Source: a virus
DNA length: 23,326 nucleotides
Virus record (IMG/VR): IMGVR_UViG_3300028822_000279
Span: 1-23,326 of that record
Reading direction: 5' to 3' (one strand)
Below the pieces are notes generated by a model, which was given only the letters and a program-made list of their open reading frames with translations, was not told the DNA's origin and did not search any database. Each line of letters starts with the position of its first letter. Positions within the stretch are counted from its first letter, which is position 1. The position numbers were made by a program, and so were the translations under genes. This document shows, one piece after another, positions 3,948-20,791 of the stretch.

Positions 3948-4106
3948 GCCACCCGTGGCGGAAAGGGTAGACGCTAATTGTCCCTAGTATGACAGTAGGC
4001 AATGGCCCGCCAGTATAAGTCGCCAAAGCGTTGCTGGATACCGCTTGTAAAACCATACCAGTGGGACATAGGGCATGTTCCAGGGTTCGATTCCCTGGCG
4101 GGTGGC
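3948..4106 (+). ncRNA. tRNA-like RNA with the anticodon region replaced by a long insertion
   Basis: The ends look like a class II (Leu-type) tRNA. GCCACCCG (3948-3955) pairs with CGGGTGGC (4099-4106); TGGCGGAA...GGGTAGACGC (3956-3974) matches the D-arm of tRNA-Leu; CCAGGG-TTCGATT-CCCTGG (4080-4098) is a T-arm with an extra base pair; ACAT-AGGGC-ATGT (4066-4078) could be a variable arm. Between D-arm and variable arm lie about 90 nt instead of about 20. TGTCCC (3979-3984) can pair with GGGACA (4063-4068), placing a 78-nt insertion where the anticodon loop should be. CCCGCCAG (4006-4013) can pair with CTGGCGGG (4095-4102), which would break the T-arm. It may be an intron-containing tRNA, a disrupted tRNA, or a tRNA mimic. 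A strong promoter lies just upstream and the portal gene starts 14 nt downstream. Confidence 0.55.
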
Positions 4107-4119
4107 CCGAAAGGATAGA

Positions 4120-6324
4120 ATGGTAAAATACTACATCAAAGGAGAGCAAGGCGGCTGGGACGCGAGCGGTAAACGCTGGAGAGATAAGCGGGGCCGTTAT
4201 GCCACTCGTGAAGCGGCGCTAGGCCTGGCAATGCAAGACGAGTGGGGCATGGCCCTCAAGTTAGACTTTGCCCCTACCTCTACTAACTTAGAGGCCATCG
4301 ATCGCGTGATGGGTGGCCTCGTTGACGTTGCCGGCTATAAGAAGCCGGACCAACTGTTGGCGGCAATTGTAGAGGCAGACCTGGGTGATAGTGCCGATCC
4401 GATGCCCTCTGACATCCTGGCCATGATGAAACTGGCCGAGTATTTCATCAAGGTGGAGGGAGATGTCTGGCAGACGATAGAAGTCCCCTTGACCGTTGGT
4501 CTGAAGCAGTTGGTCATCGAGGGGCCAGATGAGGGGTTAGAGAAAGACATTCGACAACTCTACGAGAGCCTGGATATGCTGGAGATCCTCACCCAGTTGT
4601 GGCTCTGTGTGGCCATCTATGGGCAAGCCTTCCCACTAGAGGTTTACGACAAGAAGGAGTCAAAGGGCGTATTGATTTTGAACCCCAAGTATATGAGGGT
4701 GGGCAAGACGGTTACCATGGGTCGTTATAGCCTAGACCTGATTCCCGAGACCGAGGCGTTACGGAAGGAGTTGGAAACCCAGACAGAGAAGAAACTGATG
4801 TACAACACCTTTGCGTCTGACTGGAACGAGCAGGTAGCCAAGGGGCATAACGTGCCGCTCGAGCCCGAATTCTGTCATCCGGTGCGGGGTTTAGGCCTAG
4901 CCTTTCACCGATATGTTGTCCCGCCTCTGGCCAGGGCGTTTCGGAGGATCTCCACCCGCCAGGTACTGGAAGAGCTGATCCGGGCCACCATCGAGGGATA
5001 CAGGAACCAACTGTGGCTATTCAAGCTGGGGGCAGATGGCCATGAAGCATCGCCCCAGAAAAAGGCATACTTCCAGAGCCTGATTACCGGCGCGGCTGGG
5101 GATCGGACGGGCCACCTGATCTGGACATGGGACATAGAAGCCGAGATATTGACGCCCGAGCCCATAGACGAGGTATTGGGTAGCGAGAAGCGGCGGGACC
5201 TCACCCAAGACATCTTTAGGGACTTAGGCATCAGTATGAGGCTGATTTCTGGCGAAAGCCCCGTGCGGGAGGGAAGAGGGGCCGAGGAGGCCGACATCCG
5301 CATATTCCTAGAGCGGTTGGACTTCTGGCGCAGACGGGTGATAGCATGGGCCATGGGATTCAACCGCCGGTGGCTAGAGCAAACTGGCAAGAGCAAGTAT
5401 ATTGACAAGTTGCCCCTAGTGAAGTTCGGGCGGGTTTTCTTGGAGATAGAGGAACTTATCAGAAGCCTTATCATGCCTCTGCTTCAGGCTGGGGTATTGA
5501 GCAGGAAAACAGCTCTCGAAACTGCCGGATTCAATTACGAAGCCGAGTTGCAGCGCAAAAAGGAGGAACAGCCATACATTCACTTGTTTGCGCCGGCTCC
5601 TACGTTTGCTCAGACCACCGTGAAGCCAGGGACACCAGAAAAGGAGTCCTTGACGGCTCCCAGGGGGCGGCCCCCTGACGCACAGAATCCCGAGCAATTG
5701 CTAAAGGCCTCTCAGATTTATATGGAGTACCGGGACAAGGTGCTATCTGCCTACGATGAGGCCTTGGAGGCCGAGGATAAGAAAGCGGCTATCACCAAGT
5801 TCATATCTGCTCTTGCGGTACTGAATGCCGACTATATGAAAGAGGCTGCTCAACTTGGATACATCACGGCCGGCGGATCTGGGGACCTACCTGAGGACTA
5901 TGTGCAGAGGGCTATTGACTGGAACAACGATTATCTGGCGGGCTTTGAGGGAGCCCTCCTTGAAGCGGCGGAGGACGAGAAAGCGCTGAAGAAAATGCAG
6001 CGCAGGGCCAAGATGTACGCTGACCAGGGTGACAAGATAGCGTTCATGTTCGGTGTCTTTTGGTTTATGAAGGAACAAGGCGCAAGGGGCTGGCGCAGGG
6101 TGCTTCATCCAGAACTTTCTCTAACGGGGCCCTGTGAGCTCTGTATCGCTGACAGCGTGTTGATTCATCCCATCGATGAGCCGTTTTCGGACCACCCAGA
6201 GGGCGTATGCTCGGCACAATCGCTTTATTTCTATTGGACAGAGCGTCCGATGGAAGAGATCCCCAGGATCTTCCCGGTGCCAAGGCGAAGGGATGAGAAG
6301 AGGATAGTTCGACGGATTAGGTAG
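4120..6324 (+). CDS. portal protein fused to a MuF-like C-terminal domain
   Basis: A 734-residue protein. Portals form the 12-subunit ring at the head vertex through which DNA passes; MuF proteins are minor head proteins often encoded next to the portal. Seen: a portal-like N-terminal two-thirds with VPLTVGLKQLVIEG, the helical RRISTRQVLEELIRATIEGY region and the DLGISMRLISGESP segment, then a Pro-rich spacer (about residues 525-550), a helical region and a C-terminal metal-binding signature GPCELC (Cys about 672 and 675) followed by DHPEGVC, much like the C-x2-C ... H-P-x-C end of MuF domains. A longer frame starts at 4075 but would overlap the tRNA-like T-arm; ATG 4120 with GAAAGGA upstream is preferred. 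The length (usual portals 400-550) supports the fusion. Confidence 0.82.
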   Translation: MVKYYIKGEQGGWDASGKRWRDKRGRYATREAALGLAMQDEWGMALKLDFAPTSTNLEAIDRVMGGLVDVAGYKKPDQLLAAIVEADLGDSADPMPSDILAMMKLAEYFIKVEGDVWQTIEVPLTVGLKQLVIEGPDEGLEKDIRQLYESLDMLEILTQLWLCVAIYGQAFPLEVYDKKESKGVLILNPKYMRVGKTVTMGRYSLDLIPETEALRKELETQTEKKLMYNTFASDWNEQVAKGHNVPLEPEFCHPVRGLGLAFHRYVVPPLARAFRRISTRQVLEELIRATIEGYRNQLWLFKLGADGHEASPQKKAYFQSLITGAAGDRTGHLIWTWDIEAEILTPEPIDEVLGSEKRRDLTQDIFRDLGISMRLISGESPVREGRGAEEADIRIFLERLDFWRRRVIAWAMGFNRRWLEQTGKSKYIDKLPLVKFGRVFLEIEELIRSLIMPLLQAGVLSRKTALETAGFNYEAELQRKKEEQPYIHLFAPAPTFAQTTVKPGTPEKESLTAPRGRPPDAQNPEQLLKASQIYMEYRDKVLSAYDEALEAEDKKAAITKFISALAVLNADYMKEAAQLGYITAGGSGDLPEDYVQRAIDWNNDYLAGFEGALLEAAEDEKALKKMQRRAKMYADQGDKIAFMFGVFWFMKEQGARGWRRVLHPELSLTGPCELCIADSVLIHPIDEPFSDHPEGVCSAQSLYFYWTERPMEEIPRIFPVPRRRDEKRIVRRIR

Positions 6325-6347: not shown

Positions 6348-6722
6348 ATGAAATATCGGGCATTCCTCGGGGCCATGGCCCTACTGTTCGCTGGAATCTT
6401 CATCTACGCAGACCCAATACCCGGACCATTCACTCCGTATGGCGTATACCTCATCGGCATGATCGTCCTCATAGGTTGTGCCTTCGTCGTGGGAACGCGA
6501 CGAATAGGCCAAGGAATGAGTGGCACTGCTAGGATCATCTGTGAAAGGACTGGTAGGGAAGTTAGCTATTCGCTCCCTATAACTTGGGAAGTCAAGCCTA
6601 AGCCGAGTGGAGAGGCTTGGCTGTTGTGTCACGGGTGTACAATAGGGGACTGTGCTGATAGGCAAAAGAGGGTTGGCATACTCCATGAGAATCCTCCATC
6701 TGTATGCGGACAACAAGGGTGA
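6348..6722 (+). CDS. two-helix membrane protein with Cys-rich tail, unknown function
   Basis: A 124-residue protein with a good ribosome-binding site (AAGGGG, spacing about 7). Seen: a hydrophobic segment at residues 5-22, a second at about 31-49 (VYLIGMIVLIGCAFVVG), and a soluble tail with five cysteines after residue 60, including CHGCTIGDC. The tail could bind a metal or form disulfides. It is the first gene of the accessory block and overlaps the following glycosyltransferase gene by 38 nt, suggesting translational coupling. I recognise no family; a membrane anchor for the glycan-modifying enzymes or a small membrane effector are both possible. Confidence 0.6.
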   Translation: MKYRAFLGAMALLFAGIFIYADPIPGPFTPYGVYLIGMIVLIGCAFVVGTRRIGQGMSGTARIICERTGREVSYSLPITWEVKPKPSGEAWLLCHGCTIGDCADRQKRVGILHENPPSVCGQQG

Positions 6723-7815: not shown

Positions 7816-7836
7816 AAATACTCTGCGGGAGTTGTA

Positions 7837-8445
7837 GTGGCCAGGTTAATTATCTGCACTGATTGCGGCGATGAAAAACCCCACGCCGGCAGGGGGCGTT
7901 GCCAGCAGTGTCGCAATCGTCATTATTATGAGACTCATCGCGAGGAGATACTCGCCAGACAAAAGGATTGGTATAAAAAGAATCGCAAGGAAGCACTGCT
8001 CAGAATGCGACGGTGGGGAGAGAATAATCGTGACAAAAAGGCGGCCAATCATCGCCGTTGGCAAAGGGAAAATCGAGATAAGGTAAATGCTACAAACCGT
8101 CGTTGGCAACGAGACAATCGAGAGAAGGCAACTGCCCGGGTCCGTCGGTGGCGACGGGAGAATCCCGAAAGGGCGACGGCAACTAGGGCGCGTAGGCGGG
8201 CACGAGAACAGATGCTTCCTGACACACTTACACCCGAACAAGCAAGGCAACTCATAGATATTGGGCGAACCATCTATCCAGAAGAGGAATTGCATCTTGA
8301 CCATATTGTCCCCGTGAGCAGGGGCGGGGGCACGACATTCGCAAATATGCGGGCTATCCCCGCGTCATTGAATTGTTCAAAACAAGATGCACTACCAGAA
8401 GAGGTCTATAGGCAGGAGGAACTATGGCAAGGATTTTGTATGTGA
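7837..8445 (+). CDS. HNH endonuclease with zinc ribbon and six 15-residue repeats
   Basis: A 202-residue protein. Residues 7-25 form a zinc ribbon (C7-x2-C10 ... C22-x2-C25). Residues 28-117 hold six repeats of 15 residues, each starting with an R/K-x-aromatic triplet (RHY, KDW, then RRW four times) followed by a charged helix. The C-terminal part carries HLDHIVPVSRGGG (about residues 150-162), then N and an NCSK segment, which is an HNH nuclease core. This layout is common in free-standing phage homing endonucleases; the repeats probably contact DNA. It starts with GTG at 7837 with GGGAG upstream and sits between two glycosyltransferase genes, overlapping the second by 22 nt. It is probably a mobile insertion in the cassette. 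Confidence 0.88.
   Translation: MARLIICTDCGDEKPHAGRGRCQQCRNRHYYETHREEILARQKDWYKKNRKEALLRMRRWGENNRDKKAANHRRWQRENRDKVNATNRRWQRDNREKATARVRRWRRENPERATATRARRRAREQMLPDTLTPEQARQLIDIGRTIYPEEELHLDHIVPVSRGGGTTFANMRAIPASLNCSKQDALPEEVYRQEELWQGFCM
7918..8187 (+). repeat. six degenerate 45-bp tandem repeats inside the HNH gene
   Basis: Each 45-bp unit encodes 15 residues with a period-conserved R-R-W and N-R-D/E-K pattern. The four central units (8008-8187) are the most alike, for example CGCCGTTGGCAA, CGTCGTTGGCAA, CGTCGGTGGCGA at equivalent places. The frame is kept throughout, so unit gain or loss would not break the gene. Confidence 0.75.
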
Positions 8446-9476
8446 CCTTGGGCCTTAACCCCTGCGGAGGCACACGCATCATTAACGAGCACCTAAACCG
8501 CCTCACCGACCGGGGCCATACCTGCTATCTCTTTGCCCTCAACGGCGAAATGTCCATAGGCTGGATGCCCACTAAGTTCAAGGTGATAGGCGAAGACCAG
8601 CTTAAAAGGGTTGCGAAGAAGGCTGATGTGGTTGTGGCAACCGAAGCCAACACGCCGCTTAAAGTTTCAGGCGATGAGCCCATCAAGCCAAGGGGGGCGA
8701 ACACAAAACCCTTCTATCTGGAAACGAAGGGTAGAAAGTTCTACTTCATCCAGATGCGAGAATCGCTCTTTTGGGCTCACTCGAATCCCCGCTGGGCGGG
8801 AAAGGTAGAGCTGGATTATGAGCGCATGAGGGGTGTTCTCCAACCCATCGTCATCAGCAAGTGGCTCAAGGCGTTTCTGGAAGATGAATACGGCTACGAG
8901 GATGTGCCTATCGTGCCCAACGGGCTGAACACAGAGATGTTCTACCCAGACCCAACCTTTCCCAAGTCTGAGAAGCCGCGCGTCCTCATTGAGGGACACG
9001 GCAGGAACGAGGCTAAAGACGTACACAATATGTCGTATCAGGCGGTTGCTGTCTACCGCAAGAACATTCAGCCGATTGAACTCTGGGGCTTCAGCCAATA
9101 CCCTGCCCCTGGTGACTTTGACTCCTACTGGGTTTTGCCTTCTCAGAAGGAGATAAGGCAGATATACAGCTCCTGCGATGTGTTAGTCAAGGCCAGCCGC
9201 TATGAGGGAGGGAGCGGCTTGCCGCCTATCGAGAGCATGGCCTGTGGTTGCGCCGTGGTGGTGGCGATATATATGGGAAATGACGACCTTCTGGATGGCC
9301 ATAACTGCCTCAAGGTGGACTACGGGGACGCTCAGGGCATGTACGACAACCTGAAGCGGGTCCTTCACGAGGAGGGTCTGCGGAAAAGTTTAGTGAAGAA
9401 CGGCTTGGAATATGTGAAGGAGCATCTGGCTTGGGACGACAAAATAGACCTCCTGGAGGCCATATATGCCGCCTAG
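8424..9476 (+). CDS. glycosyltransferase family 4-like protein
   Basis: A 350-residue GT-B enzyme with the full order of GT4 signatures: N-terminal MARILYVTLGLNPCGGTRIINEH (a Rossmann start with the GG acceptor loop), PIVPNGLNTEMFYP at the domain linker, and the donor site SRYEGGSGLPPIESMACGC, which contains the E-x7-E pattern of retaining GT4 enzymes. It ends with the expected long C-terminal helix. The start at 8424 has GGAGGAACT directly upstream and lies within the end of the HNH gene. It likely acts in the cytoplasm on a surface-glycan precursor together with its neighbours. The exact sugar cannot be told. Confidence 0.88.
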   Translation: MARILYVTLGLNPCGGTRIINEHLNRLTDRGHTCYLFALNGEMSIGWMPTKFKVIGEDQLKRVAKKADVVVATEANTPLKVSGDEPIKPRGANTKPFYLETKGRKFYFIQMRESLFWAHSNPRWAGKVELDYERMRGVLQPIVISKWLKAFLEDEYGYEDVPIVPNGLNTEMFYPDPTFPKSEKPRVLIEGHGRNEAKDVHNMSYQAVAVYRKNIQPIELWGFSQYPAPGDFDSYWVLPSQKEIRQIYSSCDVLVKASRYEGGSGLPPIESMACGCAVVVAIYMGNDDLLDGHNCLKVDYGDAQGMYDNLKRVLHEEGLRKSLVKNGLEYVKEHLAWDDKIDLLEAIYAA

Positions 9477-10119
9477 ATTGCCAGACTGGCTTCGGCAAAG
9501 TGTTCTGGAGATAATCAAGCCTCCTACTTTCTACAGAATCCAACACACAAAGACCGAGAGCATTCTGATCCAGAGATTTCACAACAACGAAAAACTAGAC
9601 AATGCCAGAAGGCTGTTAGAGCGTGCTATGCCCACGTATCTGCCCAAATACATGTTGAATATCCTCGATTTAGGCCCAGGAGCGGTGATCATGCACCCAC
9701 GGGCGATTCGCATTGATGTCCATAGTGGGCGCTGGGGATCTGTAGACGGAACGAGTTATGATGCCTTTCCAGACTTCGTCTGGGAGTGCCGGACCCTGCC
9801 CTTTTTGAACGAAACGATCGATGTTATCTTTAGTTCGCATCTTCTCGAGCACTTCTGGGATCATGAGCGGGTTGCCATACTCAAGGACTGGACCAGGGTT
9901 CTGCGGTCCGGGGGAAGGATGTGTCACATCTTCCCTGAGCACCCTTATGCCGGGGGGACTAGCGAATTGAGCCTCAAGGGCACATGGGAGCACAAAAGTT
10001 GCCTAACGGAGGCAAAAGTCCTAGCTGATGTTGCCCAGGTATCTGATCTGGAAATACTAGAGCATGGCTGGTCTACTCTGGAGTGGGATAAGTACATCAT
10101 CGCGGAGAAAACGGAGTGA
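9466..10119 (+). CDS. SAM-dependent methyltransferase (class I)
   Basis: A 217-residue protein. Seen: ILDLGPGA (about residues 66-73, motif I for SAM binding), an acidic strand end IRIDVHSG, DVIFSSHLLEHF (the motif around the LEH often found in Methyltransf_11 proteins), and VLRSGGRMCHIFPE (post-motif). Such enzymes often methylate sugars or lipid carriers in glycan gene clusters. The start overlaps the preceding glycosyltransferase by 11 nt and its own end overlaps the next small gene. Substrate unknown; a sugar O-methyltransferase or capping enzyme is the likeliest reading from context. Confidence 0.8.
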   Translation: MPPRLPDWLRQSVLEIIKPPTFYRIQHTKTESILIQRFHNNEKLDNARRLLERAMPTYLPKYMLNILDLGPGAVIMHPRAIRIDVHSGRWGSVDGTSYDAFPDFVWECRTLPFLNETIDVIFSSHLLEHFWDHERVAILKDWTRVLRSGGRMCHIFPEHPYAGGTSELSLKGTWEHKSCLTEAKVLADVAQVSDLEILEHGWSTLEWDKYIIAEKTE

Positions 10120-10298
10120 ACTTCATCGACTACCCCGAGCGGCCATGTGCTTACTGCGGCGAGGTCATCCGATCAATAGGCCCAAGCGCCTACGAATGGA
10201 ACCCTCAGTTGGTGGCGTGTGGACATTGTGGGAAGGTAAATGTGTCAGGATATAAAGATGGCCATTTCATTTGGCGCAAGCGGGAGTGGAAAGGATGA
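10116..10298 (+). CDS. small zinc-ribbon protein
   Basis: A 60-residue protein starting with GTG, 4-nt overlap with the methyltransferase stop. Seen: C11-x2-C14 (PCAYCGE) and C35-x2-C38 (ACGHCGK), a compact four-cysteine zinc ribbon with a Trp-rich end. No enzyme core is present. The two CxxC pairs and lengths fit a small nucleic-acid- or protein-binding domain, and such proteins are common in phage genomes. Its link to the glycan genes on both sides is by position only. Confidence 0.6.
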   Translation: MNFIDYPERPCAYCGEVIRSIGPSAYEWNPQLVACGHCGKVNVSGYKDGHFIWRKREWKG

Positions 10299-11443
10299 AA
10301 ATCCTTATCTGCACCTTGCGACATTGGACGGCAGGAAGGCGTTTCAGGAGCCTTTTGCTCAACGCGCCCAAGCTGGGCCATGAGGTGTTTGGCTTGGCAT
10401 CAGACTGGTATGCGGATCAGGATTTGACCATTGCTGCCTTTAACGAGTTGGGAGCGCAGGCATTCCCCAAGCAAGCGTGGCAAGCCACGATTGAGCGGTT
10501 GAATCCCGACGTGGTTTTTGGCGAGCATTTATTCCCCACCGATGTTGAGCGCAGGGTCCAAGACTGGGTAAATAGCCAGAACAAAATCGGTCTAATCATT
10601 AACCACGATCCGCACATTATTCAGTCTACGCATCATGCCCCCAAGCCAGAATGGACTCTCACTTACCTTTCGGTGGCCAACCAGCAACAAGCGCACGCGC
10701 GGGCAACCTGTTATACAGGCGAGCAAGCCATACGGAACTGGCCCCAGGAGCGAATCTTCGTCCTTGGGTCCCCTGATCTTGATTTTGTGACAGAAAGCGT
10801 TGATGTCGCAGAGGTTCGAGACAGGCTAGGGTTGAGCCCGAACCAACCACTGATCGGGCTTTTTCCTACGCTCGCCCACGCCGCCGATCGCGAGGAACTT
10901 ACTACGCTGGTGGGTAGATGCCAGGGAGCGGGCTGGCAGGTCGTTATTCATCTTCACCCAGTTGGAAGACGCCTTCAAAATAGTAAGCCCCCACACGGTT
11001 TTTGGGTCTATGACCGCGGATTCGTCGCAGCCGACTTCTGGCCCAAAATACAGGCGATGGGAGCACGATTCATTGCTGACTACGGACCTGGGCGGGTATG
11101 CGGCGTGGAATTTCATCGGTGCCAGAGCTTTGAACTTCTACGAGCGGCAGATTGCTTGATAGGGACTTGGGATCCCTTCTTTGAAGCCTACGCCTTGAAG
11201 AGGGGCTACACACTTTTGGAGTCGATAGCAGCGCACTGCCTGAACTACCCATCGCACAAGGACGTCTTGGACCGTGAATTTGAGTTGCAAGGCAATTTCG
11301 CGAAGATCTCGCAGATCCTAGAACGGGGCAATGATTCAGAACAAGACCCCGGATTTGTGGAAAAATGGTTTTTCAAACTTGATGGGCTTTGGTGGAAACG
11401 AGCCCTAGATCTCGCAGAGCAACTGGTAAGAGACAACGCATGA
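10295..11443 (+). CDS. GT-B-fold transferase, CDP-glycerol/epimerase-like
   Basis: A 382-residue protein. Seen: MKILICTLRHWTAGRRF at the N-terminus, LIGLFPTLAH in the middle, VVIHLHPVG, and AADCLIGTWDPFFEAYALKRG near the C-terminus. The order of strand, H-x-H-P and a late site with a loop plus acid is what GT-B enzymes of the CDP-glycerol glycerophosphotransferase and UDP-GlcNAc 2-epimerase group show. It could add glycerol-phosphate or a sugar to a surface polymer. ATG 10295 is chosen because GGAAAGG lies just upstream; a longer frame from 10271 would lie inside the zinc-ribbon gene. It overlaps the next gene by 4 nt (ATGA). Confidence 0.6.
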   Translation: MKILICTLRHWTAGRRFRSLLLNAPKLGHEVFGLASDWYADQDLTIAAFNELGAQAFPKQAWQATIERLNPDVVFGEHLFPTDVERRVQDWVNSQNKIGLIINHDPHIIQSTHHAPKPEWTLTYLSVANQQQAHARATCYTGEQAIRNWPQERIFVLGSPDLDFVTESVDVAEVRDRLGLSPNQPLIGLFPTLAHAADREELTTLVGRCQGAGWQVVIHLHPVGRRLQNSKPPHGFWVYDRGFVAADFWPKIQAMGARFIADYGPGRVCGVEFHRCQSFELLRAADCLIGTWDPFFEAYALKRGYTLLESIAAHCLNYPSHKDVLDREFELQGNFAKISQILERGNDSEQDPGFVEKWFFKLDGLWWKRALDLAEQLVRDNA

Positions 11444-12186
11444 AGGGATCTAAAGTAAGCATCCTGTTGCCTACTTACCGGCGGCCCGGACTCATCCGAC
11501 GGGCATTGTCCAGCATCTATTTGCAGTCCCTCGAGGACTGGGAACTCGTCGTAGTGGAGAACGGCTCCACGCCTGAGATTCAGGAGCAATACTTCCAAGA
11601 TGTAGTTTCAAACTTGCCAGAGCAGTACGAGATAACCTGGCTTACCGTACCCTGGGCCTCCTTGCCTGACGCGTTGAATCTTGCCCTTGAGCGGGCGACG
11701 GGGAAGTACATCGCCATACAAGAGGACGATGACGAATGGCTTGCGGACTTCTTGAGCACGGTAGTAGATCACATGGACGACTGCACGTGTGGGATGGCCT
11801 ATGTCCACCAATTCGAGGTTAAGGCGGGCAAGCCTGTGAGAATCCTAAATCGCCTGCCGGAGAAGTTTGACAAAGATCAGTTGCTCGTCGCCAGTTATAT
11901 CAGTTTTCCTAACAGGCTGATTAGAAGAGAGGCCTTGGAAAAGATTGGTGGTTTTCATCCTGATGGGGGCTCTGCTACAGACTGGATCACGTCGTGCCTC
12001 GTTTCGAAAGATTGGCCCATTTGCCAGTTGGATGAGACCTTGGTAGTTCATCATTGGCATGAGGACGAGAACGCGCCGAACTACTGCTTGGTCGAGCCTG
12101 GCTGGACGGCTTCGTCTGTGCGATACACGCTGTTGCAACGGAAGATGCTGGCCAGGGGTGATTTTGGGCCTTGGCCATCGCAGTAA
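11440..12186 (+). CDS. glycosyltransferase family 2 protein
   Basis: A 248-residue protein with the GT-A fold. Seen: VSILLPTYRRPGLIRRALSS (residues 5-24), the typical start of GT2 enzymes; VVVENGSTPE, the second strand with the N/D-G-S loop; LNLALERATGKYIAIQEDDDEW, with the D-x-D metal site; and a late SATDWITS plus HHWHED region. These bind the nucleotide-sugar and a divalent metal for an inverting transfer. ATG 11440 overlaps the previous stop by 4 nt, so translation is likely coupled. It is one of four sugar transferases in this block. Confidence 0.88.
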   Translation: MKGSKVSILLPTYRRPGLIRRALSSIYLQSLEDWELVVVENGSTPEIQEQYFQDVVSNLPEQYEITWLTVPWASLPDALNLALERATGKYIAIQEDDDEWLADFLSTVVDHMDDCTCGMAYVHQFEVKAGKPVRILNRLPEKFDKDQLLVASYISFPNRLIRREALEKIGGFHPDGGSATDWITSCLVSKDWPICQLDETLVVHHWHEDENAPNYCLVEPGWTASSVRYTLLQRKMLARGDFGPWPSQ

Positions 12187-12210
12187 AAGATTTTCAACGA
12201 AAGGTGACCG

Positions 12211-13050
12211 ATGAGCAAAGTCATAGTCCATCTCCAGGCAAGGATGGCATCTTCTAGGTTACCAAATAAGGCTGCGTATGAACTTGGTGGCAAGCCAGCC
12301 TTTGTGCAGATCTTGGAACGGATACAGGAGTATGTTCCAGATGCTAATCATTACTTTGTGGTCACGACCCTTGATGCCACTGACGATCCGTTGGCCTTAC
12401 TGGCGAAGGCGTATGGATACGAGGTGTTCCGGTGGAGCGAACAACCCAATATCCGCTGCCGAGAGTTCTATCGCTATTTGGATCTTAAAGATGACGACAT
12501 CTCAATACTTGTGCCAGGAGATGCTCCCTTCATCTTGTGCGAACACCTACCTTTTGCTATTGAGAAGATTCGGGAGCTTGGCAATCGAACCCGGGTCTTG
12601 AGTGAAGACGGAACCGTGATTTGGGCCACTACTGCGGTCCATCCACAGCCAGTAGGCTATTATGAGCTTTTGATACAAGATGCATTTCGCGTAAGAGTCG
12701 GCGAGCATAGCATGGTAAGCCATCATCAGCCAGCGACCTTTATCAAGCTACCAGAGCGATTCTATAAACCATGGCCTTGGGCTCCCATAATTCTCGACTA
12801 TCCCCTCGAGGGGATGCAGATCAAGGTGATCTACAATCTGCTATACAGAGGAAAGCCGATAGATGTACGGGATGTCTACGATCTTCTTGTTCAAAGGCCG
12901 CATGTTGCCAACCTCGTACCAAGGGACATCAAGCGTGCCGAGCAGATAGTATACCCCTATGGATCCCATGGGTTCGATGTGATCGACATAATGAATACTA
13001 CAGACAGTGTTGTCGTGGAGTGGGAAGGAGGTGAAGCGGATAAGGAATGA
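12211..13050 (+). CDS. spsF-like: SpsF/CMP-sugar-type cytidylyltransferase
   Basis: A 279-residue protein. Residues 4-26 contain VIVHLQARMASSRLPNKA and LGGKP, the nucleotide-binding signature of the SpsF/KdsB/NeuA family (x-Q-A-R-x-x-S-S-R-L-P-x-K), followed by HYFVVTTLDATDDPL and ISILVPGDAPF. Members couple CTP to an acidic sugar or a glycerol-like unit, giving the activated donor used by transferases. The protein is slightly longer than the basic 240-residue enzymes and has an extra C-terminal tail. AAAGGTGA precedes the ATG. This would supply the activated precursor for the neighbouring transferases, possibly the CDP-type donor for the GT-B protein at 10295; that pairing is inference. Confidence 0.8.
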   Translation: MSKVIVHLQARMASSRLPNKAAYELGGKPAFVQILERIQEYVPDANHYFVVTTLDATDDPLALLAKAYGYEVFRWSEQPNIRCREFYRYLDLKDDDISILVPGDAPFILCEHLPFAIEKIRELGNRTRVLSEDGTVIWATTAVHPQPVGYYELLIQDAFRVRVGEHSMVSHHQPATFIKLPERFYKPWPWAPIILDYPLEGMQIKVIYNLLYRGKPIDVRDVYDLLVQRPHVANLVPRDIKRAEQIVYPYGSHGFDVIDIMNTTDSVVVEWEGGEADKE

Positions 13051-13090
13051 ATTAGTGCCTGAAGTTCAATAGAGAAAGAGGAGGTTAGAA

Positions 13091-14518
13091 GTGCGTAAGA
13101 TCGTAAGTATCTTGGTGCTTGTGTCAATGTTGGTTATGCTCTTCTCGGCGTGTGCGAAACCAGCACCGACACCAGTACCGCCTGCTCCGACAGCGGTTCC
13201 TGTGGAGGAGGCCGAAGAGGCCGAAGAGGAACCAACAGAGGAAGTTGCCCCTGAGCCGTTTACGCTCGTCTGGTATACTGGCCATGCCGCGGGTTGTATA
13301 AACCAGGATTACTGCATTCCAGAGTGTGAGGAGCCTGGATGCCTGGGAGATTGGCAGATTGCACGTTTCCACGAGCTATACCCGCAATACGATCACGTCA
13401 CCATCGAGTACATCTACCAGACGGAAGTTGGTGGGCTTTTGCCTCCCGACCTCGACACGCTCATCGCTGCCGGGGAGACTCCCAACATGATAGATGGCTA
13501 TGGCGGGCGCATCGGACGCTACGCAGCCATTGGGCTGAACTTCGATGAGTACCTCGACGATGACCAGAAGGCCGACTTTCTCAACTACGAAGGGATGTTC
13601 TTCGGTGACACGATGCCGATGATTGAGGCTTCGGGCAACTTTGCTTACTTCACCGTCAACGCCACTCTAGTTGGAAGGGCCTGCGCCCAGGAGGAGTTCG
13701 AATGCGGCGTTCCAGAACCCTGGTCTATCGTGAGCCACGACGAATTTCTGGAGATCGGCAGGGCCATCAAGGCCCTTGACGATGGCTCATACCTCGGGTT
13801 GCTGTTCGGAATGAACGCCTCCAGCCAGCACCTCCAGTGGCTCTGGTTCGCTCAGGTCGGCGTACAAGCCTTCGAGAGCGGTGTGTTCACAGGACTGAAC
13901 ACTCCCGAGACTCGCGCCGTGATGAAGGAGTTGATTGACCTTTATGACGATGGTCAGTTCATGCCCGGCGCACCGGGGCTCTGTGACGATGACTACCTCG
14001 TTTACTGGGGGCCTGGCAAGATTGCCTTCGCCCCCTGGGGCTTGCCCCGACACGCGTCCGTAATCGCGGGGCTCGTTGAGTCGGGCGAGCTTGAGGAGGC
14101 TTGGGAGATCGTGCCGATTGCTGGGATCCAGTTCGATGAGGACATTCAGCCACTCATGTCAGGGTCCCACTTCACAACTGCTAGCATAGTCACAGCAGCC
14201 ACCCCGGAAGAGCACCGGAAGGCAGCGGTTGACTTCGCGCACTTCACCATGATGTTGCATTGGGTGGAGTGGGTAAACCCGGGCACACTCCCCGGGACGC
14301 ATCCTAGCAATGACAAGCTCAGGCTAGGTGATCTGGGTCCAGCATACGACTACATCGCAGAGCACGGTCTAGCAGATGTGGGGGTTTACAACCCGCATTA
14401 CAATGAGATCCGTTCTCTCTTCGCTGACCTGGTTGCCGCCATGACCGCTGGGGTGAAGTCGCCCACGGAGGCCATGTTCACACTTGAGCAGATCGGGAAG
14501 GCGTTGATGGAAGAATGA
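13091..14518 (+). CDS. ABC transporter solute-binding lipoprotein (carbohydrate type)
   Basis: A 475-residue protein that would sit outside the membrane on a lipid anchor and deliver a solute, most likely a sugar or oligosaccharide, to the two permeases that follow. Seen: a signal peptide with a hydrophobic core (residues 4-18), a lipobox ending in FSAC, a low-complexity linker of Pro, Thr and Glu (about residues 24-55), then a family 1 binding-protein body with repeated Trp/Phe-Pro features such as IAFAPWGLPRH. A Cys-rich patch (AGCINQDYCIPECEEPGC) follows the linker and may hold disulfides. The GTG start has GAGGAGGTT 5 nt upstream. The linker type is typical of Chloroflexota. It overlaps the next gene by 4 nt. 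No promoter lies in the 40-nt gap before it. Confidence 0.9.
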   Translation: MRKIVSILVLVSMLVMLFSACAKPAPTPVPPAPTAVPVEEAEEAEEEPTEEVAPEPFTLVWYTGHAAGCINQDYCIPECEEPGCLGDWQIARFHELYPQYDHVTIEYIYQTEVGGLLPPDLDTLIAAGETPNMIDGYGGRIGRYAAIGLNFDEYLDDDQKADFLNYEGMFFGDTMPMIEASGNFAYFTVNATLVGRACAQEEFECGVPEPWSIVSHDEFLEIGRAIKALDDGSYLGLLFGMNASSQHLQWLWFAQVGVQAFESGVFTGLNTPETRAVMKELIDLYDDGQFMPGAPGLCDDDYLVYWGPGKIAFAPWGLPRHASVIAGLVESGELEEAWEIVPIAGIQFDEDIQPLMSGSHFTTASIVTAATPEEHRKAAVDFAHFTMMLHWVEWVNPGTLPGTHPSNDKLRLGDLGPAYDYIAEHGLADVGVYNPHYNEIRSLFADLVAAMTAGVKSPTEAMFTLEQIGKALMEE

Positions 14519-15381
14519 GTCGTAACCGACGAGGTTGGTGGGGGCTTCTCTTCGTAGCCCCCGCCCTCCTGTTCTTATTCGTCTACTTCATACTACCTAT
14601 AATTTACAGCGGGAATCTGAGCTTCTATAAAGTTGAATTGACTGGAAGGTCCTGGGTTGGCTTCGAAAATTACCTGGCGCTGGGAGACCAGGATCACCTA
14701 TCGAACGGCATCCGGGTTTCTGCGAAGTTTCTGACCGCATATCTGTTCTTTAACATCGTCGTCGCGTACCTGCTAGCGATCGGGATGAGTAAGTTCAGCC
14801 CACGGTTCTGCGGGGTGATGCTCACGTACTACCACATACCATGCCTGATTTCCGCGATTTCGAGCATTGCGGTCTGGCGATGGCTTTACAGATACCCAGG
14901 AGGAGGCTTCAACGAAGTCCTAGAGGCTCTCCACCTACCGACAATGATGTTCCTGGGGAATCCGAGGATCGCCGCCTGGGCGATCTGCTTCGTGATGATG
15001 GGCGGCATGGTGGGCAGCTCGACGGTTCTGTACGCGGCGACCATAAGCCAGGTCAACAAGGAGATACTCGGTGCTGCTCGGCTTGACGGGGCGAACGAGT
15101 TGCAAGTGATCTGGCACATCCTTACTCCGCTGACCCAGCCCGTGAGGATGTATATCTTGATCGGCAACTTCATAGGAGCGATGAATGTCTGGGAGCATCC
15201 GTTCTTCTTCACCGGAGGTGGACCTTTTGGGTCCACGAGGACGATGATGTTCGAGATCTACTATACTGCGTTTGTCAAGCACAGGTTCGGGTTGGCCTCG
15301 GCTTTGACCATGGTCATGATGGGCATTGCTCTGGTGATCGCCATCGTGTCAATGCGAAGGGTTAGGAGCTACCTTGGGTAA
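14515..15381 (+). CDS. ABC transporter permease, MalF/UgpA type
   Basis: A 288-residue inner-membrane protein with about six hydrophobic segments, the normal size for binding-protein-dependent sugar permeases. Seen: the conserved EAA-type loop EILGAARLDGANELQVIWHI and TPLTQPV (about residues 184-209), which contacts the ATPase, and the FTGGGPFGST region before the last membrane helices, as in MalF/UgpA proteins. It forms a pore heterodimer with the next gene product. ATG overlaps the previous stop by 4 nt, and its own end overlaps the next gene by 8 nt, showing coupled translation. No ATP-binding subunit follows, so a host MalK-like ATPase would be needed. Confidence 0.93.
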   Translation: MSRNRRGWWGLLFVAPALLFLFVYFILPIIYSGNLSFYKVELTGRSWVGFENYLALGDQDHLSNGIRVSAKFLTAYLFFNIVVAYLLAIGMSKFSPRFCGVMLTYYHIPCLISAISSIAVWRWLYRYPGGGFNEVLEALHLPTMMFLGNPRIAAWAICFVMMGGMVGSSTVLYAATISQVNKEILGAARLDGANELQVIWHILTPLTQPVRMYILIGNFIGAMNVWEHPFFFTGGGPFGSTRTMMFEIYYTAFVKHRFGLASALTMVMMGIALVIAIVSMRRVRSYLG

Positions 15382-16231
15382 GAAAATCATCTTGGCGGCC
15401 ATGATCATCCTATTGGGTACCTGGTTCGTCTTTCCCGCGTACTTTACGCTCCAGACATCGTTCATGACCAAGTTTGCCCTCGTCAACCCTGTCACAGCAT
15501 GGCGACACAGCTCGCTGGGCAACTGGAAGATGATGCCCTGGGGCTTGCTACTGGGCTGGCTGAGAAATAGCTTGATCGTTTGTTGTTCGCTCTCTATACT
15601 CACGTTGCTCGTTTGCGTCGCGGCAGGCTATGGATTCGCGAAGTTCGACTTCCCCATGAAGGACCCGCTGTTCTGGTTGTTCCTCGTAGCGATGATAGTC
15701 CCGGGGACTCTGCTGTTCCTGCCCAGATATCTGATCACGAGAGATATGAAGATTCTCAATACGCATGTGGCGATGATCCTGCCGCTGATACTTAGTCCCT
15801 CAATGGTGTTCCTCTCGCGTCAATACTTGCTGTCGATTAGCAACGAGCTACTGGATGCCGGGCGGGTCGACGGTGCGTCGGAAGTCCAGATCTTCCGGTA
15901 CATCGTACTTCCGTTGGTGAAGCCATTGATTGTCCTCGCGGTGCTCGGAGGCTTTAGCGCTGGCTGGGGGGACTTCATGTGGCAGTACATCGTGGCCAGG
16001 AATCGAGACATCCAAACGATGACTGTGGGGCTGGGACTCTTCATGATGGGCTCAGCGGGCCCGACGGGATCGAGCCTGTCGCCAGAGTTTACAGCCTTGA
16101 TTCGGCAGGGAATATCCCTGGAGGGTATGCAGGCGGTCGCAGCAATACTTCAGTCTGCGCCCATGTTAGCACTCTTCGCTTTCGGTCAGAAATACTTTCT
16201 ACAAGGCATCAAATTGGGAGCCCCGGAATGA
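15374..16231 (+). CDS. ABC transporter permease, MalG/UgpE type
   Basis: A 285-residue partner permease with about six hydrophobic segments. Seen: N-terminal membrane helix, LGNWKMMPWGLLLGWLRNSL (the MalG-type N-(x)-W-R-N-S segment), an FPMKDPLFWLFLVAMIVPG region, and the EAA loop ELLDAGRVDGASEVQIFRYI followed by LPLVKP. It starts with TTG at 15374, with GGAG five nucleotides upstream, inside the end of the first permease gene. The last helices and GIKLGAPE end match carbohydrate uptake family members. Only 1 nt separates its stop from the following methyltransferase gene, so the transporter is fused seamlessly into the viral gene run. Confidence 0.93.
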   Translation: MGKKIILAAMIILLGTWFVFPAYFTLQTSFMTKFALVNPVTAWRHSSLGNWKMMPWGLLLGWLRNSLIVCCSLSILTLLVCVAAGYGFAKFDFPMKDPLFWLFLVAMIVPGTLLFLPRYLITRDMKILNTHVAMILPLILSPSMVFLSRQYLLSISNELLDAGRVDGASEVQIFRYIVLPLVKPLIVLAVLGGFSAGWGDFMWQYIVARNRDIQTMTVGLGLFMMGSAGPTGSSLSPEFTALIRQGISLEGMQAVAAILQSAPMLALFAFGQKYFLQGIKLGAPE

Positions 16232-16232
16232 G

Positions 16233-16847
16233 ATGCGATTAGACGAAGTCAGGCGTGAAATGCAGAAGGTGGAGGTACAAATTCAGGGTGGCCCTAAGCC
16301 CGGCGCGCCCGATCAGATAAGCATTTTTTACGACATCGTAAAGCACCTCGATCCTAACGGACTTATCGTTGAAATAGGGACTTACAAGGGTGGTTCTGCG
16401 CTAATGTTCTCTCTCATGAATCCCCAGGTGCGCATCCTAACGATTGATGCTGTTGAAGAGGCAACTGACTATTGGGATCCTCTGACCTATCCCCCTGGTC
16501 ATAATATCCGCGAGGGACGGCTTCTTCCAAGCGGGATCTTGCCAGAGAATCTTTGTAGGGGCAAGATTTTCCAGGTCATTGGGTTCTCAAAGGACATAGC
16601 ACAGACTTTCAACTGGAGAATTGATTTTTTATTCATTGATGGCCATTGGAAGTACGAGCCCACCAAGATAGATTTTGAAAGCTGGGCTCCGTTTGTGAAG
16701 CCGGGTGGCTGGATCATCGGGCATCATTATTGTGGAGAGGCCTATGAACACGAAGCAAAGCGAGCGATTGATGAATGGATAGCAGAGCAGAGTGAATTTT
16801 ATTGGGTTGGCGAAATGGAACTGATGGCCGTGATACGAAGAAGGTAG
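16233..16847 (+). CDS. SAM-dependent methyltransferase, Methyltransf_24-like
   Basis: A 204-residue protein. Seen: LIVEIGTYKGGSALMF (about residues 44-59, motif I), RILTIDAVEE (acidic strand end), FLFIDGHWKYEPTKIDFESW and PFVKPGGWIIGHHYCG. The last three match the FIDG-H-x-Y ... D-x-x-x-W ... PGG-x-I-x-x-H-D pattern of Methyltransf_24 and CmcI-like enzymes, which often act on sugars and O-antigen parts. The start at 16233 follows the permease stop by 1 nt. It closes the transporter and glycan part of the block. The methylated substrate is not known; a sugar residue is the best guess from context. Confidence 0.82.
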   Translation: MRLDEVRREMQKVEVQIQGGPKPGAPDQISIFYDIVKHLDPNGLIVEIGTYKGGSALMFSLMNPQVRILTIDAVEEATDYWDPLTYPPGHNIREGRLLPSGILPENLCRGKIFQVIGFSKDIAQTFNWRIDFLFIDGHWKYEPTKIDFESWAPFVKPGGWIIGHHYCGEAYEHEAKRAIDEWIAEQSEFYWVGEMELMAVIRRR

Positions 16848-16860
16848 AAAGGTGAGAAAG

Positions 16861-17097
16861 ATGGCCCGCCTCGCGGAGAGGATTCAGGCGTTCTTCCGGG
16901 ATAACGAGGTCTATGAACGCAACTTTGAGGTTGGTGGATTCTTCGGCGGCCTCCAGATTTACTCATATCAACTTGCTCTAGGGCTAAGTATCAGTCGGCT
17001 GCGTTGTAATGGCACTCGTCTTCTCCGTGGCTATCTTGGTCCCTTCAAGTTGTGGGTCAACACAAGGAAAAAAGATGTCAATGACACAGCCGAGTAG
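16861..17097 (+). CDS. small protein of unknown function
   Basis: A 78-residue protein. ATG 16861 has GGTGAG about 4-9 nt upstream; a GTG at 16852 in the same frame is a possible earlier start (81 residues). Seen: an amphipathic start, an aromatic and Gly-rich part (FEVGGFFGG), then a hydrophobic stretch LQIYSYQLALGLSIS, and a basic tail with KLWVNTRKK. It could be membrane-associated. I recognise no family. It overlaps the next gene by 23 nt. Confidence 0.5.
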   Translation: MARLAERIQAFFRDNEVYERNFEVGGFFGGLQIYSYQLALGLSISRLRCNGTRLLRGYLGPFKLWVNTRKKDVNDTAE

Positions 17098-17263
17098 CGG
17101 CAGCACTCTGTCGCAAGAACTTATCCGCTATATCGAGGTCAACCGGGCGGAGATCGACCGATTCCGCTATGGTGCTTATAGCATAAGAATTGTCAACAGG
17201 CATCTGCATAGCTGGACGTGGGAGCGAGAGGAGAGGAGGGGGAAGGAAATTGACTATCTTTGA
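17075..17263 (+). CDS. small protein of unknown function
   Basis: A 62-residue protein. AAGGA lies 6 nt upstream of ATG 17075; a second ATG at 17081 is also possible. Seen: a Ser/Thr-rich start, a helical middle (SQELIRYIEVNRAEID) and a strongly charged end with Trp (SWTWEREERRGKEID). No family is recognised. It is the last gene of the accessory block; a promoter begins 6 nt after its stop. Confidence 0.5.
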   Translation: MSMTQPSSGSTLSQELIRYIEVNRAEIDRFRYGAYSIRIVNRHLHSWTWEREERRGKEIDYL

Positions 17264-17438: not shown

Positions 17439-17443
17439 ACTCG

Positions 17444-17480
17444 GAGGGGGTGAGCAAATGCTCGCCCCCTCTTTCTTTTT
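17444..17480 (+). terminator. strong intrinsic terminator
   Basis: GAGGGGGTGAG (17444-17454) pairs with CTCGCCCCCTC (17461-17471) in an 11-bp GC-rich stem with a single G-T pair and a 6-nt loop, followed by TTTCTTTTT. It would stop the short transcript and could also end read-through from the accessory block, although the protease gene 28 nt later then needs read-through or another promoter. Confidence 0.9.
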
Positions 17481-17507: not shown

Positions 17508-19304
17508 ATGCCGAAGGCGGTTGATCAATGTGTAAAAAGGCGACTAGCTAACCCCGCTTTCAAGGCCCCGAAAGGCTCGGACAAGACCCGGAAAGAGTTC
17601 GCCTGGGCCCTCTGTCAGACGCTCTACAAGGAAGGCAAGTTAGACGGTATGAGCGTGGAGATAGAGGGCCAGGAGTATTGGTCGTTGGACGGCATCGAGT
17701 GGTTTGCGAGAGACGAAGGGAACGTGACTGGCTTCAACTTAGAGCCTGTGACCGATGCCGACATGGAGAAGTTGAATCGCCTCCTGGGGGCACAGACAGA
17801 CAAGACTGAGATCCTCAAGTTCTCCAACGCTTTCTTGGCCCGGGAGGAGCTGAACAAGAACAAGGATAGGTTGAGCAGGAAGAACCTGGAGGACATCGCT
17901 AAAACATTGCCTCTCAGGGCTATTGATTTCGAGCATCGGGAGCAGGAGATCGTAGGGTTGTTCATTGATGCCGAGGTGAAAGGAAATGGCGCCGGCGATG
18001 GCGTCTCAACCGACGGGATTGTCTATGCCCGCCGTCGTCCTGATGTGGCGATGGGCTTGATGAAGGGAGAATTGGGCCTCTCTATCGAGGCCGATGCTGA
18101 CAGTGCTCTCTGCTCGATGTGCAAGCAGGTCTTCAAGTCGAGCGCAGATTATTGCTCTCATCTGGAGACCAGGCTTCAGGGCTCGGGTGCTGAACGCAGT
18201 TTTCCTGGCTCGATGGTGGCTCTTGGCGGGGCTGTTACCAAGAGCCCTGCTGGCACAGCCACGGATGTGCCGACGGAATCCATCGTGATGATAGCCAGCC
18301 AGATCTATGTGGAAGGAGGTGAGAACCCATTGGGAGGCAAGGCACCGCCCAAGAGTTACGAGCGCATCAAAGATCTAGTGCAGGACGCACTCAACAAGGA
18401 GTATAGGCCTCCTGCCCGAGCTGAAGGACCGGTGGAGAGTCCGTGGGTGCGCTTCACTTTCTCGGACTTCGTGATCATCAGAAGCGGGGGCAAACTCTTC
18501 AAGGTTCCTTACAAGATCAAGAAGAATGATGTGGAACTTGGAGAGTGGCAGGAGGTCGAGGAGACCTTTGTAGAGGCTATGCGGAAGGCAGGTGAAGCGC
18601 TGGATGAAGTAGTCGTTGACCTCTGGAGCAAGGCTGACGAAGAGATATTCTTCGCTGACCCGGATGGAGCCTTGGAAGGGAAGGCTCTCACCTACAAAGA
18701 GCGCCAGGCGTTGAAAGATAGTGATTTTGCCCTCATCCAAAAACGCAATAGCAAGAGGATACGCCGGTTCCCCATTCATGATTGTCCTCGAGCCGCTAAT
18801 GCGTTGCAACGACTGCCCCAAGCCAAGAACCTCTCCTCGGAGGAGAAGGCGAAGATCAAACGCAAGGCCCAAGCGAAGTTGAACAGCCCAGCGTGCAAGT
18901 CTAAGACGAAAGGAGGTGACAGGATGGAAGAGTTGGAGAAAGTCCAAGCCGAGTTGGCCGAAAAGGTCAGGGCCCTGGAAGCCCTAGAGGGCGAGAAGGG
19001 GGACCTTGTGACCAAACTCGCGGCTGCGGAGAAGGAGCGTGACGACTTCAAGGCTGACCTGGAGAAAGAGAAGACGGCCCACAAGCGTGAGCTCGAGCTC
19101 TTGGCTTACCTCAAGCCAGAGCGTATCGAGGAGCAGCGTGAGGCCATCGAAGGCATGAACGACGAAGCCTTCACCCTCTTCCTAGAGAGCCTGAAGGGGA
19201 CCGAGGAGCATAAGGCGGGCATCCTCGGTCATGTCCCGCCCGGAAGCGAAGATCCGTCCCCCGACCCAAGCAAAGAGAAAGCCGCTTGGGTTACTCCAGA
19301 GTAG
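17508..19304 (+). CDS. prohead protease and scaffold polyprotein with a zinc insert
   Basis: A 598-residue protein. Seen in order: a small helical N-terminal part (1-47); a protease-like region with candidate catalytic H143 (DFEHREQEIVGLF) and S192 (LGLSIEADA); a zinc-knuckle insert with C202, C205, C216 and H218, as in several phage head proteases; a middle domain (275-380) with WVRFTFSDFVI; a DUF6582-like part (about 398-458) with DSDFALI, RRFPIHD and LSSEEKAKIK; and a C-terminal coiled coil (473-540) typical of scaffolds. The protein would guide capsid assembly and then cut the scaffold out. AAGGAG lies 4 nt before the ATG. Two internal ribosome-binding sites suggest shorter nested products. 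It is followed by decoration and capsid genes as expected. Confidence 0.78.
   Translation: MPKAVDQCVKRRLANPAFKAPKGSDKTRKEFAWALCQTLYKEGKLDGMSVEIEGQEYWSLDGIEWFARDEGNVTGFNLEPVTDADMEKLNRLLGAQTDKTEILKFSNAFLAREELNKNKDRLSRKNLEDIAKTLPLRAIDFEHREQEIVGLFIDAEVKGNGAGDGVSTDGIVYARRRPDVAMGLMKGELGLSIEADADSALCSMCKQVFKSSADYCSHLETRLQGSGAERSFPGSMVALGGAVTKSPAGTATDVPTESIVMIASQIYVEGGENPLGGKAPPKSYERIKDLVQDALNKEYRPPARAEGPVESPWVRFTFSDFVIIRSGGKLFKVPYKIKKNDVELGEWQEVEETFVEAMRKAGEALDEVVVDLWSKADEEIFFADPDGALEGKALTYKERQALKDSDFALIQKRNSKRIRRFPIHDCPRAANALQRLPQAKNLSSEEKAKIKRKAQAKLNSPACKSKTKGGDRMEELEKVQAELAEKVRALEALEGEKGDLVTKLAAAEKERDDFKADLEKEKTAHKRELELLAYLKPERIEEQREAIEGMNDEAFTLFLESLKGTEEHKAGILGHVPPGSEDPSPDPSKEKAAWVTPE
18313..18332 (+). 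promoter_or_regulatory. internal ribosome-binding site and TTG start within the protease gene
   Basis: AAGGAGGTGA (18313-18322), a perfect Shine-Dalgarno core, lies 7 nt before an in-frame TTG (18330-18332, residue 275). This spacing is ideal. It would start a product beginning with (M)GGKAPPKSYERIK and lacking the protease part, but holding the middle domain and scaffold. Confidence 0.5.
18924..19304 (+). CDS. nested scaffold protein started inside the protease gene
   Basis: AAAGGAGGTGA (18909-18919) lies 4 nt before ATG 18924, in frame with the longer gene (residue 473). The 126-residue product begins MEELEKVQAELAEKV and is mostly a charged coiled coil, with a short acidic and proline-rich tail. 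This is the classic arrangement of a scaffold gene nested in the 3' part of the protease gene, as Nu3 within gene C of phage lambda. It would supply free scaffold in excess of the protease fusion. The ribosome-binding site is among the best in the window, which makes chance unlikely. Confidence 0.68.
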   Translation: MEELEKVQAELAEKVRALEALEGEKGDLVTKLAAAEKERDDFKADLEKEKTAHKRELELLAYLKPERIEEQREAIEGMNDEAFTLFLESLKGTEEHKAGILGHVPPGSEDPSPDPSKEKAAWVTPE

Positions 19305-19855: not shown

Positions 19856-20791
19856 ATGTCTGAGGAAAAGGCATTCGTTTTCGGGAACCTCAAGATTGAC
19901 CCTGTCAGCGGTAACCCTGTTGTGGGCTCTTCGGAGTTGGAGCAGGTGGCTGCCCTGATGGCGGAGGTCGGCCAGGATCCCAGCCGGGAACTGCACCAGC
20001 TGGTGGGGCAGGGCATTCGTGCCCCTATCCGCCAGATGGCTGCATATCGAGAGTGGGCGGGTATGTTCTTCGAGCCCTGGCAGTTAGGGTTCACCGACGA
20101 CAACAAGATCCCCCTTGACGACTATATTGCCGTGGCTTGGGAGACGCACCCGGATGGCCAGGTCTTGCTCGTGCGCCCTGGTCTCAAGTGGACTCGCCCC
20201 GACTTCACCATGATCGATACGGCCATGGAACTCCCCTGGGATGTTCTAAGGGCTGCGGGCTGGCCTATCCTGCAACGCAAGATGCAGGAGTGTGCCGAGG
20301 AACTCGCTCGCAAGCGAGACTCCATGGGGCAGACCGTTCTGGATACTGCTATGCTGGCGGGCCACAAGAGCAGCGTGTCCGACAACATCACCAAGACTAA
20401 GATCGACGCCATCTTCAAGGGCGCGGCGCAGATCGGTTACCCGATCCGTCGGGTGGCCATCAACTCTGGCACGGTCCTCGCCATGAGGAGCTGGACTGGC
20501 TCCAGTTTCGGTATGGAGGCGCTGACAGACGAGATGATCCGGGCCTTGGTCACCAGAGGGTACATCGGGGAGTACGGCGGAGCTGACTGGTATGCACATC
20601 ACAGCGTGCCTGCTGACTATGTTTATCTCGGTGGAGCACCTGCCGACATCGGTTACCACCAGATGAAGGGGGGAACTCGCGCCGTTAGCGACATAGACAT
20701 CATCAACAAGACCGACATCCACACGCTGGATGAGTACCATGCCTACTATGTCGGCAACGCGTACAACCTGTGGCGGTTAGAAATCACGTAG
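19856..20791 (+). CDS. major capsid protein (HK97 fold)
   Basis: A 311-residue protein, a usual size for HK97-type capsid proteins, which form the icosahedral shell. Seen: an N-terminal helical part with ELHQLVGQGIRAPIRQ, a central run containing AAQIGYPIRRVAINSGTVLAMRSW, typical of the P-domain spine helix and beta-sheet, and a late ADWYAHHSVPADYVYLGG segment like the A-domain of capsid proteins. No membrane or enzyme motif is present. AGGAGGTGA precedes the ATG. Order after protease and decoration genes supports the call. I identify it by context and general pattern, not by a diagnostic motif. Confidence 0.82.
   Translation: MSEEKAFVFGNLKIDPVSGNPVVGSSELEQVAALMAEVGQDPSRELHQLVGQGIRAPIRQMAAYREWAGMFFEPWQLGFTDDNKIPLDDYIAVAWETHPDGQVLLVRPGLKWTRPDFTMIDTAMELPWDVLRAAGWPILQRKMQECAEELARKRDSMGQTVLDTAMLAGHKSSVSDNITKTKIDAIFKGAAQIGYPIRRVAINSGTVLAMRSWTGSSFGMEALTDEMIRALVTRGYIGEYGGADWYAHHSVPADYVYLGGAPADIGYHQMKGGTRAVSDIDIINKTDIHTLDEYHAYYVGNAYNLWRLEIT

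Follow-up and report, generated by a model that had tools for sequence, protein, structure and literature searches.

The viral DNA analysed here (hereafter the window; IMG/VR virus record IMGVR_UViG_3300028822_000279, a 23-kb fragment of 23,326 bases) carries three consecutive overlapping genes that, as judged from their sequences, encode a phage-borne core of a carbohydrate-type (CUT1-like) ABC importer, namely a solute-binding lipoprotein (SBP) and two permeases (P1 and P2). The same genes are found in the same order in a second phage with different flanking genes, and on that comparison we regard the three as preserved as a set. We consider it fairly probable that they form an auxiliary transport cassette: a type I importer of the CUT1-like kind, minus its ATPase, that would import carbohydrate by means of an ATPase shared with the host.

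The importer genes and their relatives

The first gene (SBP, 13091..14518, + strand) has a GTG start after AGGAGG and encodes a protein of 475 aa, whose N-terminus is a hydrophobic helix with a lipobox-like site (FSA-C21) at Cys21. It is followed on the same strand by P1 (14515..15381, +; 288 aa, MalF/UgpA/AlgM1-like), with the EAA loop AARLDGANELQVIWHILTPL, and by P2 (15374..16231, +; 285 aa, MalG/UgpE/AlgM2-like), with the EAA loop AGRVDGASEVQIFRYIVLPL. SBP overlaps P1 by 4 nt and P1 overlaps P2 by 8 nt. An earlier note on this DNA had described a lipobox binding protein and two EAA-loop permeases with these overlaps at 13091-16231, and the open reading frames lie exactly there.

Both permeases score above the curated cut-off of Pfam BPD_transp_1 (PF00528; 1e-8 for P1 and 1.2e-12 for P2). 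Their best relatives in NCBIfam are GlcT/UgpA for P1 and UgpE for P2 (2e-26), and the best solved relatives of the pair are AlgM1/AlgM2 and SugA/SugB, with P1 leading to AlgM1 (4tqu) and P2 also to MalG. The EAA loops of type I importer permeases are the docking sites of the ATPase, and those of P1 and P2 (AARLDGAN...ILTPL and AGRVDGAS...IVLPL) align with those of AlgM1/AlgM2 and are kept in both phages. These Pfam, NCBIfam and solved-relative matches, together with phage genes on both sides, bear out the proposal that the core of a carbohydrate-type ABC importer is carried by a phage. We infer that the substrate is a carbohydrate solely from the permease families.

SBP is the more divergent partner. 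The window protein matched no Pfam family; its orthologue in the second phage, 88% identical, scores 29.2 bits for SBP_bac_8, above the cut-off of 27 (1e-6). A search against PDB sequences gave no meaningful match, SBP being too divergent for a solved relative, and no plasmid-borne relative was found among plasmid sequences. An AlphaFold model of SBP built from two sequences had a pLDDT of 36. The protein contains eight cysteines, including a cysteine-rich stretch (C69, C75, C79, C84) and C198, C205 and C298, all of which are kept in both phages. Such cysteines are unusual among sugar-binding proteins and are suggestive of disulfides.

The best cellular homologues found for the cassette belong to ordinary sugar operons and are 35% (Rhizobium plasmids) and 41% (Bacillota, P2) identical. 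The operon of the Bacillota P2 homologue is of the usual cellular kind, and an ABC ATPase ORF lies near it. A genome scan for SBP with only two short patterns gave no match, and another genome scan, with a pattern that carried a spacing error, returned one distant Clostridia importer as its sole match; neither scan led to the nearest host operon.

Among 50,697 phage records, SBP had no match. P1 and P2 gave low-identity matches there; those listed were in unannotated bulk assemblies or in a 515-kb Salmonella contig and are probably bacterial contamination. A comparable importer set was thus not found in these records, as far as P1 and P2 can be judged from the matches listed. The earlier note had known of no phage example, and likewise no annotated phage record with such a set appeared among the matches listed. 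Scans of IMG/VR with DNA patterns found only the second phage, which leaves two known instances of the cassette; the recall of one pattern was low (2/41 genomes), and these scans hint weakly that the cassette is rare in IMG/VR.

The viral setting of the cassette

Upstream of the cassette, the window encodes a portal-like protein (4075..6324, +; PHROG 2739, 6e-6; Bacillus phage G portal, 8e-10) and an ORF with Walker and nuclease motifs of the large-terminase kind. The terminase call comes from motifs read by eye only, profile searches having found no family match for this ORF. Two tRNA genes, Thr-TGT (965-1037) and Tyr-GTA (1403-1482), are located upstream of the terminase-like gene, and the ORFs that overlap them are probably spurious. 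Downstream of the cassette are a major head protein-like ORF (19856..20791, +; PHROG 2522, 1.8e-5), a cement-like protein with a profile score below the cut-off, and a virion structural-like ORF (9e-4). The structural-type genes on both sides of the cassette are all on the + strand.

A cargo block of ~10 kb (6652-17100), which includes the importer cassette, lies between the portal-like and capsid-like genes. Profile searches assigned to this block glycosyltransferases (6652-7815, 8424-9476 and 11389-12186), an HNH protein (7837-8445) and a methyltransferase (9466-10119), all on the + strand, and a further + strand ORF (10271-11443) has no assigned family. An SpsF/KdsB-like cytidylyltransferase (12211..13050, +; CTP_transf_3, 7e-8) ends 40 nt upstream of SBP, and a second methyltransferase (16233..16847, +; Methyltransf_24 / rhamnosyl O-methyltransferase-like) has its ATG 1 nt past the P2 stop, both spacings being those of the earlier description. 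A search for mobile-element ends showed no direct repeats on either side of the cassette, and its inverted repeats are short, chance-like pairs.

The block is closed by a strong intrinsic-terminator-like hairpin (17443..17480, +; 13-bp stem and T-run; -28.3 kcal/mol, z -5.9), and the next large ORF starts at 17508. This ORF (17508-19304) precedes the cement and capsid genes; its PHROG matches are weak, and it may be a protease/scaffold fusion. The suggestion that the importer sits inside a head-assembly operon therefore needs to be narrowed: the cassette does lie between portal-like and capsid-like genes, but the terminator separates it from the capsid genes, which makes it cargo among structural genes rather than strictly a part of the head-assembly transcription unit. 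Co-transcription with the capsid genes is probably absent unless the terminator is read through.

A second phage with the same cassette

A search of viral sequences with the three proteins, which the earlier note had named as a check, recovered the same set. In IMG/VR, the searches with P1, P2 and SBP each returned one and the same lone contig, IMGVR_UViG_3300009150_000005 (45.1 kb), on which an SpsF-like gene, SBP, P1 and P2 follow one another in the order and on the strand seen in the window, with the 4-nt and 8-nt overlaps repeated. The SpsF-like protein of this second phage (L004:4346-5251) is 45% identical to that of the window. Its SBP orthologue (L004:5236-6639) is far closer (88%), and the alignments give 91% protein identity for P1 and 92% for P2. 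At the DNA level, similarity (84% identity) spans window positions 13238-16231 and stops at the P2 stop codon. The ORF after P2 in the second phage (L004:8346-9047), whose ATG overlaps the P2 stop, is unrelated to the window methyltransferase. Over the space of a few bases, each copy of the cassette gives way to phage genes that are unrelated.

The capsid of the second phage is of the GP7 / PHROG 212 type (1.9e-54), and the contig also matches terminase, portal (weakly) and tail spike. Both copies of the cassette are accordingly found in a viral genome beside hallmark genes, which are portal-like, head-like and cement-like in the window and GP7 capsid, terminase and tail spike in the second phage. 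The capsid, terminase and portal proteins are unrelated between the two, and no relatives of either capsid protein were found in IMG/VR. Beyond the cassette, only the SpsF-like protein and an HNH protein (45% in each case) are clearly common to both records, the methyltransferase match being weak. The HNH-type protein contains 'NRRWQRENRDK'-like repeat units and occupies different genomic places (7837-8445 in the window, L004 10849-11436 in the second phage); it may act as a mobile endonuclease and so help the two phages to exchange genes. The second phage also has an ORF of 2,783 aa (L023 45-8396), which may specify a giant protein of the virion or an internal one, and a Radical SAM domain protein (L022 8447-9310; PHROG 9298, 6e-39).

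Selection and codon usage

The reading frames of SBP, P1 and P2 are intact in both phages. When the two copies were compared by a simple Nei-Gojobori-type count, dN/dS was 0.081 for SBP, 0.076 for P1 and 0.041 for P2, at dS values of 0.63-1.14. Low dN/dS at substantial dS implies that each of the three proteins has retained its function, and from this comparison we take the cassette to be intact and under purifying selection. It should be noted that, if the two copies are separate captures from related hosts, the selection signal could have built up partly in the cellular donors.

In codon usage, the window's cassette correlates with the phage's own genes at r 0.81-0.86, compared with 0.63-0.64 for its SpsF-like and methyltransferase neighbours; the cassette of the second phage correlates with the genes of that phage at r 0.73-0.83, and the two phages correlate with each other at r=0.94. 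This near-identical usage makes it likely that the two phages have related hosts, for which Chloroflexota is a guess. The agreement between cassette and phage genes suggests that the cassette has either resided long in phage or come from a donor whose usage matched.

In one alternative, two phages of related hosts recently and independently captured host sugar-operon DNA that has no function in infection. The cellular homologues are indeed ordinary sugar importers, and the similar codon usage of both phages means that a shared host pool may apply. Nevertheless, both phages hold the same three genes without an ATPase, behind an SpsF-like gene and with phage genes tight downstream, every frame is intact, and the cassette resembles the phage's own genes in codon usage. 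We therefore regard a passenger origin as unlikely.

The pattern of constraint bears on a further alternative, raised in part by the earlier note, in which the surface of the infected cell is altered by the lipoprotein, acting alone or together with the permeases, as a decoy or a means of superinfection exclusion that blocks competing phages, and transport is incidental. A lipoprotein that the phage places on the cell surface would be exposed, the adjacent glycosyltransferases could also change the surface, and transporters do serve phages as receptors. A lipoprotein acting in this way, however, needs neither two permeases held at dN/dS 0.04-0.08 nor conserved EAA loops. P1 and P2, EAA loops included, are under constraint no weaker than that on SBP, which a lipoprotein decoy or block leaves unexplained, and we find this account unlikely. 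The companion suggestion, that the virus reshapes host sugar uptake, fits best.

The missing ATPase and a proposed mode of action

No ABC ATPase (PF00005) was found at E<=1 in either the window record or the 45-kb record, in a search that was positive in 14/14 control genomes. Since the window is a fragment of 23 kb, and the second record may also be incomplete, an ATPase could be encoded on genome parts outside the two records. The absence of an ATPase, on which the earlier note had not remarked, would define how the importer has to work, and it suggests that these viruses plug an importer into the motor of the host cell and so change the uptake of the infected cell. Bacillus and Streptococcus offer established examples of carbohydrate importers that lack an ATPase of their own and share a single one (MsmX/MsmK; PMC7658222).

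In the mechanism that we favour, whose use of a host ATPase makes it the simplest one that would work, SBP would during infection be a lipoprotein anchored on the outside of the host membrane, P1 and P2 would form the channel, and their EAA loops would dock on a shared 'multitask' ATPase of the MalK/MsmX type supplied by the host. The assembled complex would import a sugar or sugar-like solute, which may feed phage production or the neighbouring glycan-modifying genes (glycosyltransferases, cytidylyltransferase and methyltransferases). Assembly with the host ATPase, the direction of import, the carbohydrate substrate and the benefit to infection are parts of this mechanism that we infer.

The same lack of an ATPase in both records would also suit a complex that imports no new substrate and instead competes for the host's shared ATPase, shutting down other sugar uptake, given that one shared ATPase serves many importers (PMC7658222). 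Pure titration would not need SBP, which is nonetheless kept and constrained (dN/dS 0.08), and such jamming seems to us very unlikely. Chimeras of host and phage DNA do occur in metagenomes, and the earlier note had named a chimeric assembly as an outcome that would overturn its reading, but a fusion of host operon and phage contig during assembly or binning is scarcely credible, because the gene junctions are flush, strand and codon usage are continuous, and the arrangement recurs, at 84% DNA identity and between other flanks, on a second contig, so that the artefact would have to occur twice at identical gene boundaries; the independent second phage rules out a chance chimera.

Returning to the importer that runs on a host motor, we offer a broader proposal, more tentatively and with a little less than even confidence: that the three-gene cassette is phage-adapted and moves as a unit among phages that infect one host group but are otherwise unrelated, that it works only through the host's shared sugar-transport ATPase, and that it imposes a new uptake specificity or a supply of glycan precursors on the infected cell. 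A whole importer core that two unrelated phages have in common and that selection has retained would mean, if functional, that a phage is able to give the cell a new uptake specificity by way of the host motor. If true, phage infection would be tied directly to the cycling of dissolved carbohydrate, and motor-sharing by host ATPases would be exploitable by phages.

Comparison with known systems

To our knowledge, the ABC-type genes for nutrient uptake that have been described in phages encode single binding proteins, such as PstS. A phage carbohydrate ABC importer was not found in the open literature, the scope being papers outside subscription, and other phage transporters were found. Viruses, phages included, can encode transporters, for example the sodium/glucose transporters of phages (PMC6163359). 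In the part of that survey available to us, the ABC transporters come from mimivirus-like viruses, entomopox and other large eukaryotic viruses, and a phage carbohydrate ABC importer is absent (PMC6163359).

In composition, the cassette resembles CUT1 importers such as UgpAE, MalFG, AlgM1M2 and SugAB, with a lipobox binding protein of the SBP_bac_8 type and two EAA-loop permeases. Unlike these importers, it is encoded by a phage and the ATPase gene is absent from the record. In this last respect it is like the importers energised by MsmX/MsmK, in that SBP and two permeases occur without a cognate ATPase gene; those importers are bacterial and chromosomal, whereas the cassette is phage-borne and its partner ATPase would be that of the infected host (PMC7658222).

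Among phage genes, cyanophage PstS is a phosphate-binding protein for nutrient import (PMC10976474). PstS is read as an auxiliary gene for nutrient uptake (PMC10976474), and SBP resembles it in that a phage carries the binding protein of an ABC importer of host type. PstS, however, occurs alone and binds phosphate (PMC10976474), whereas the cassette adds both permeases and belongs to a carbohydrate-type family. On the sequence evidence assembled here, cyanophage PstS would be the nearest precedent, and the whole importer core would be what is new.
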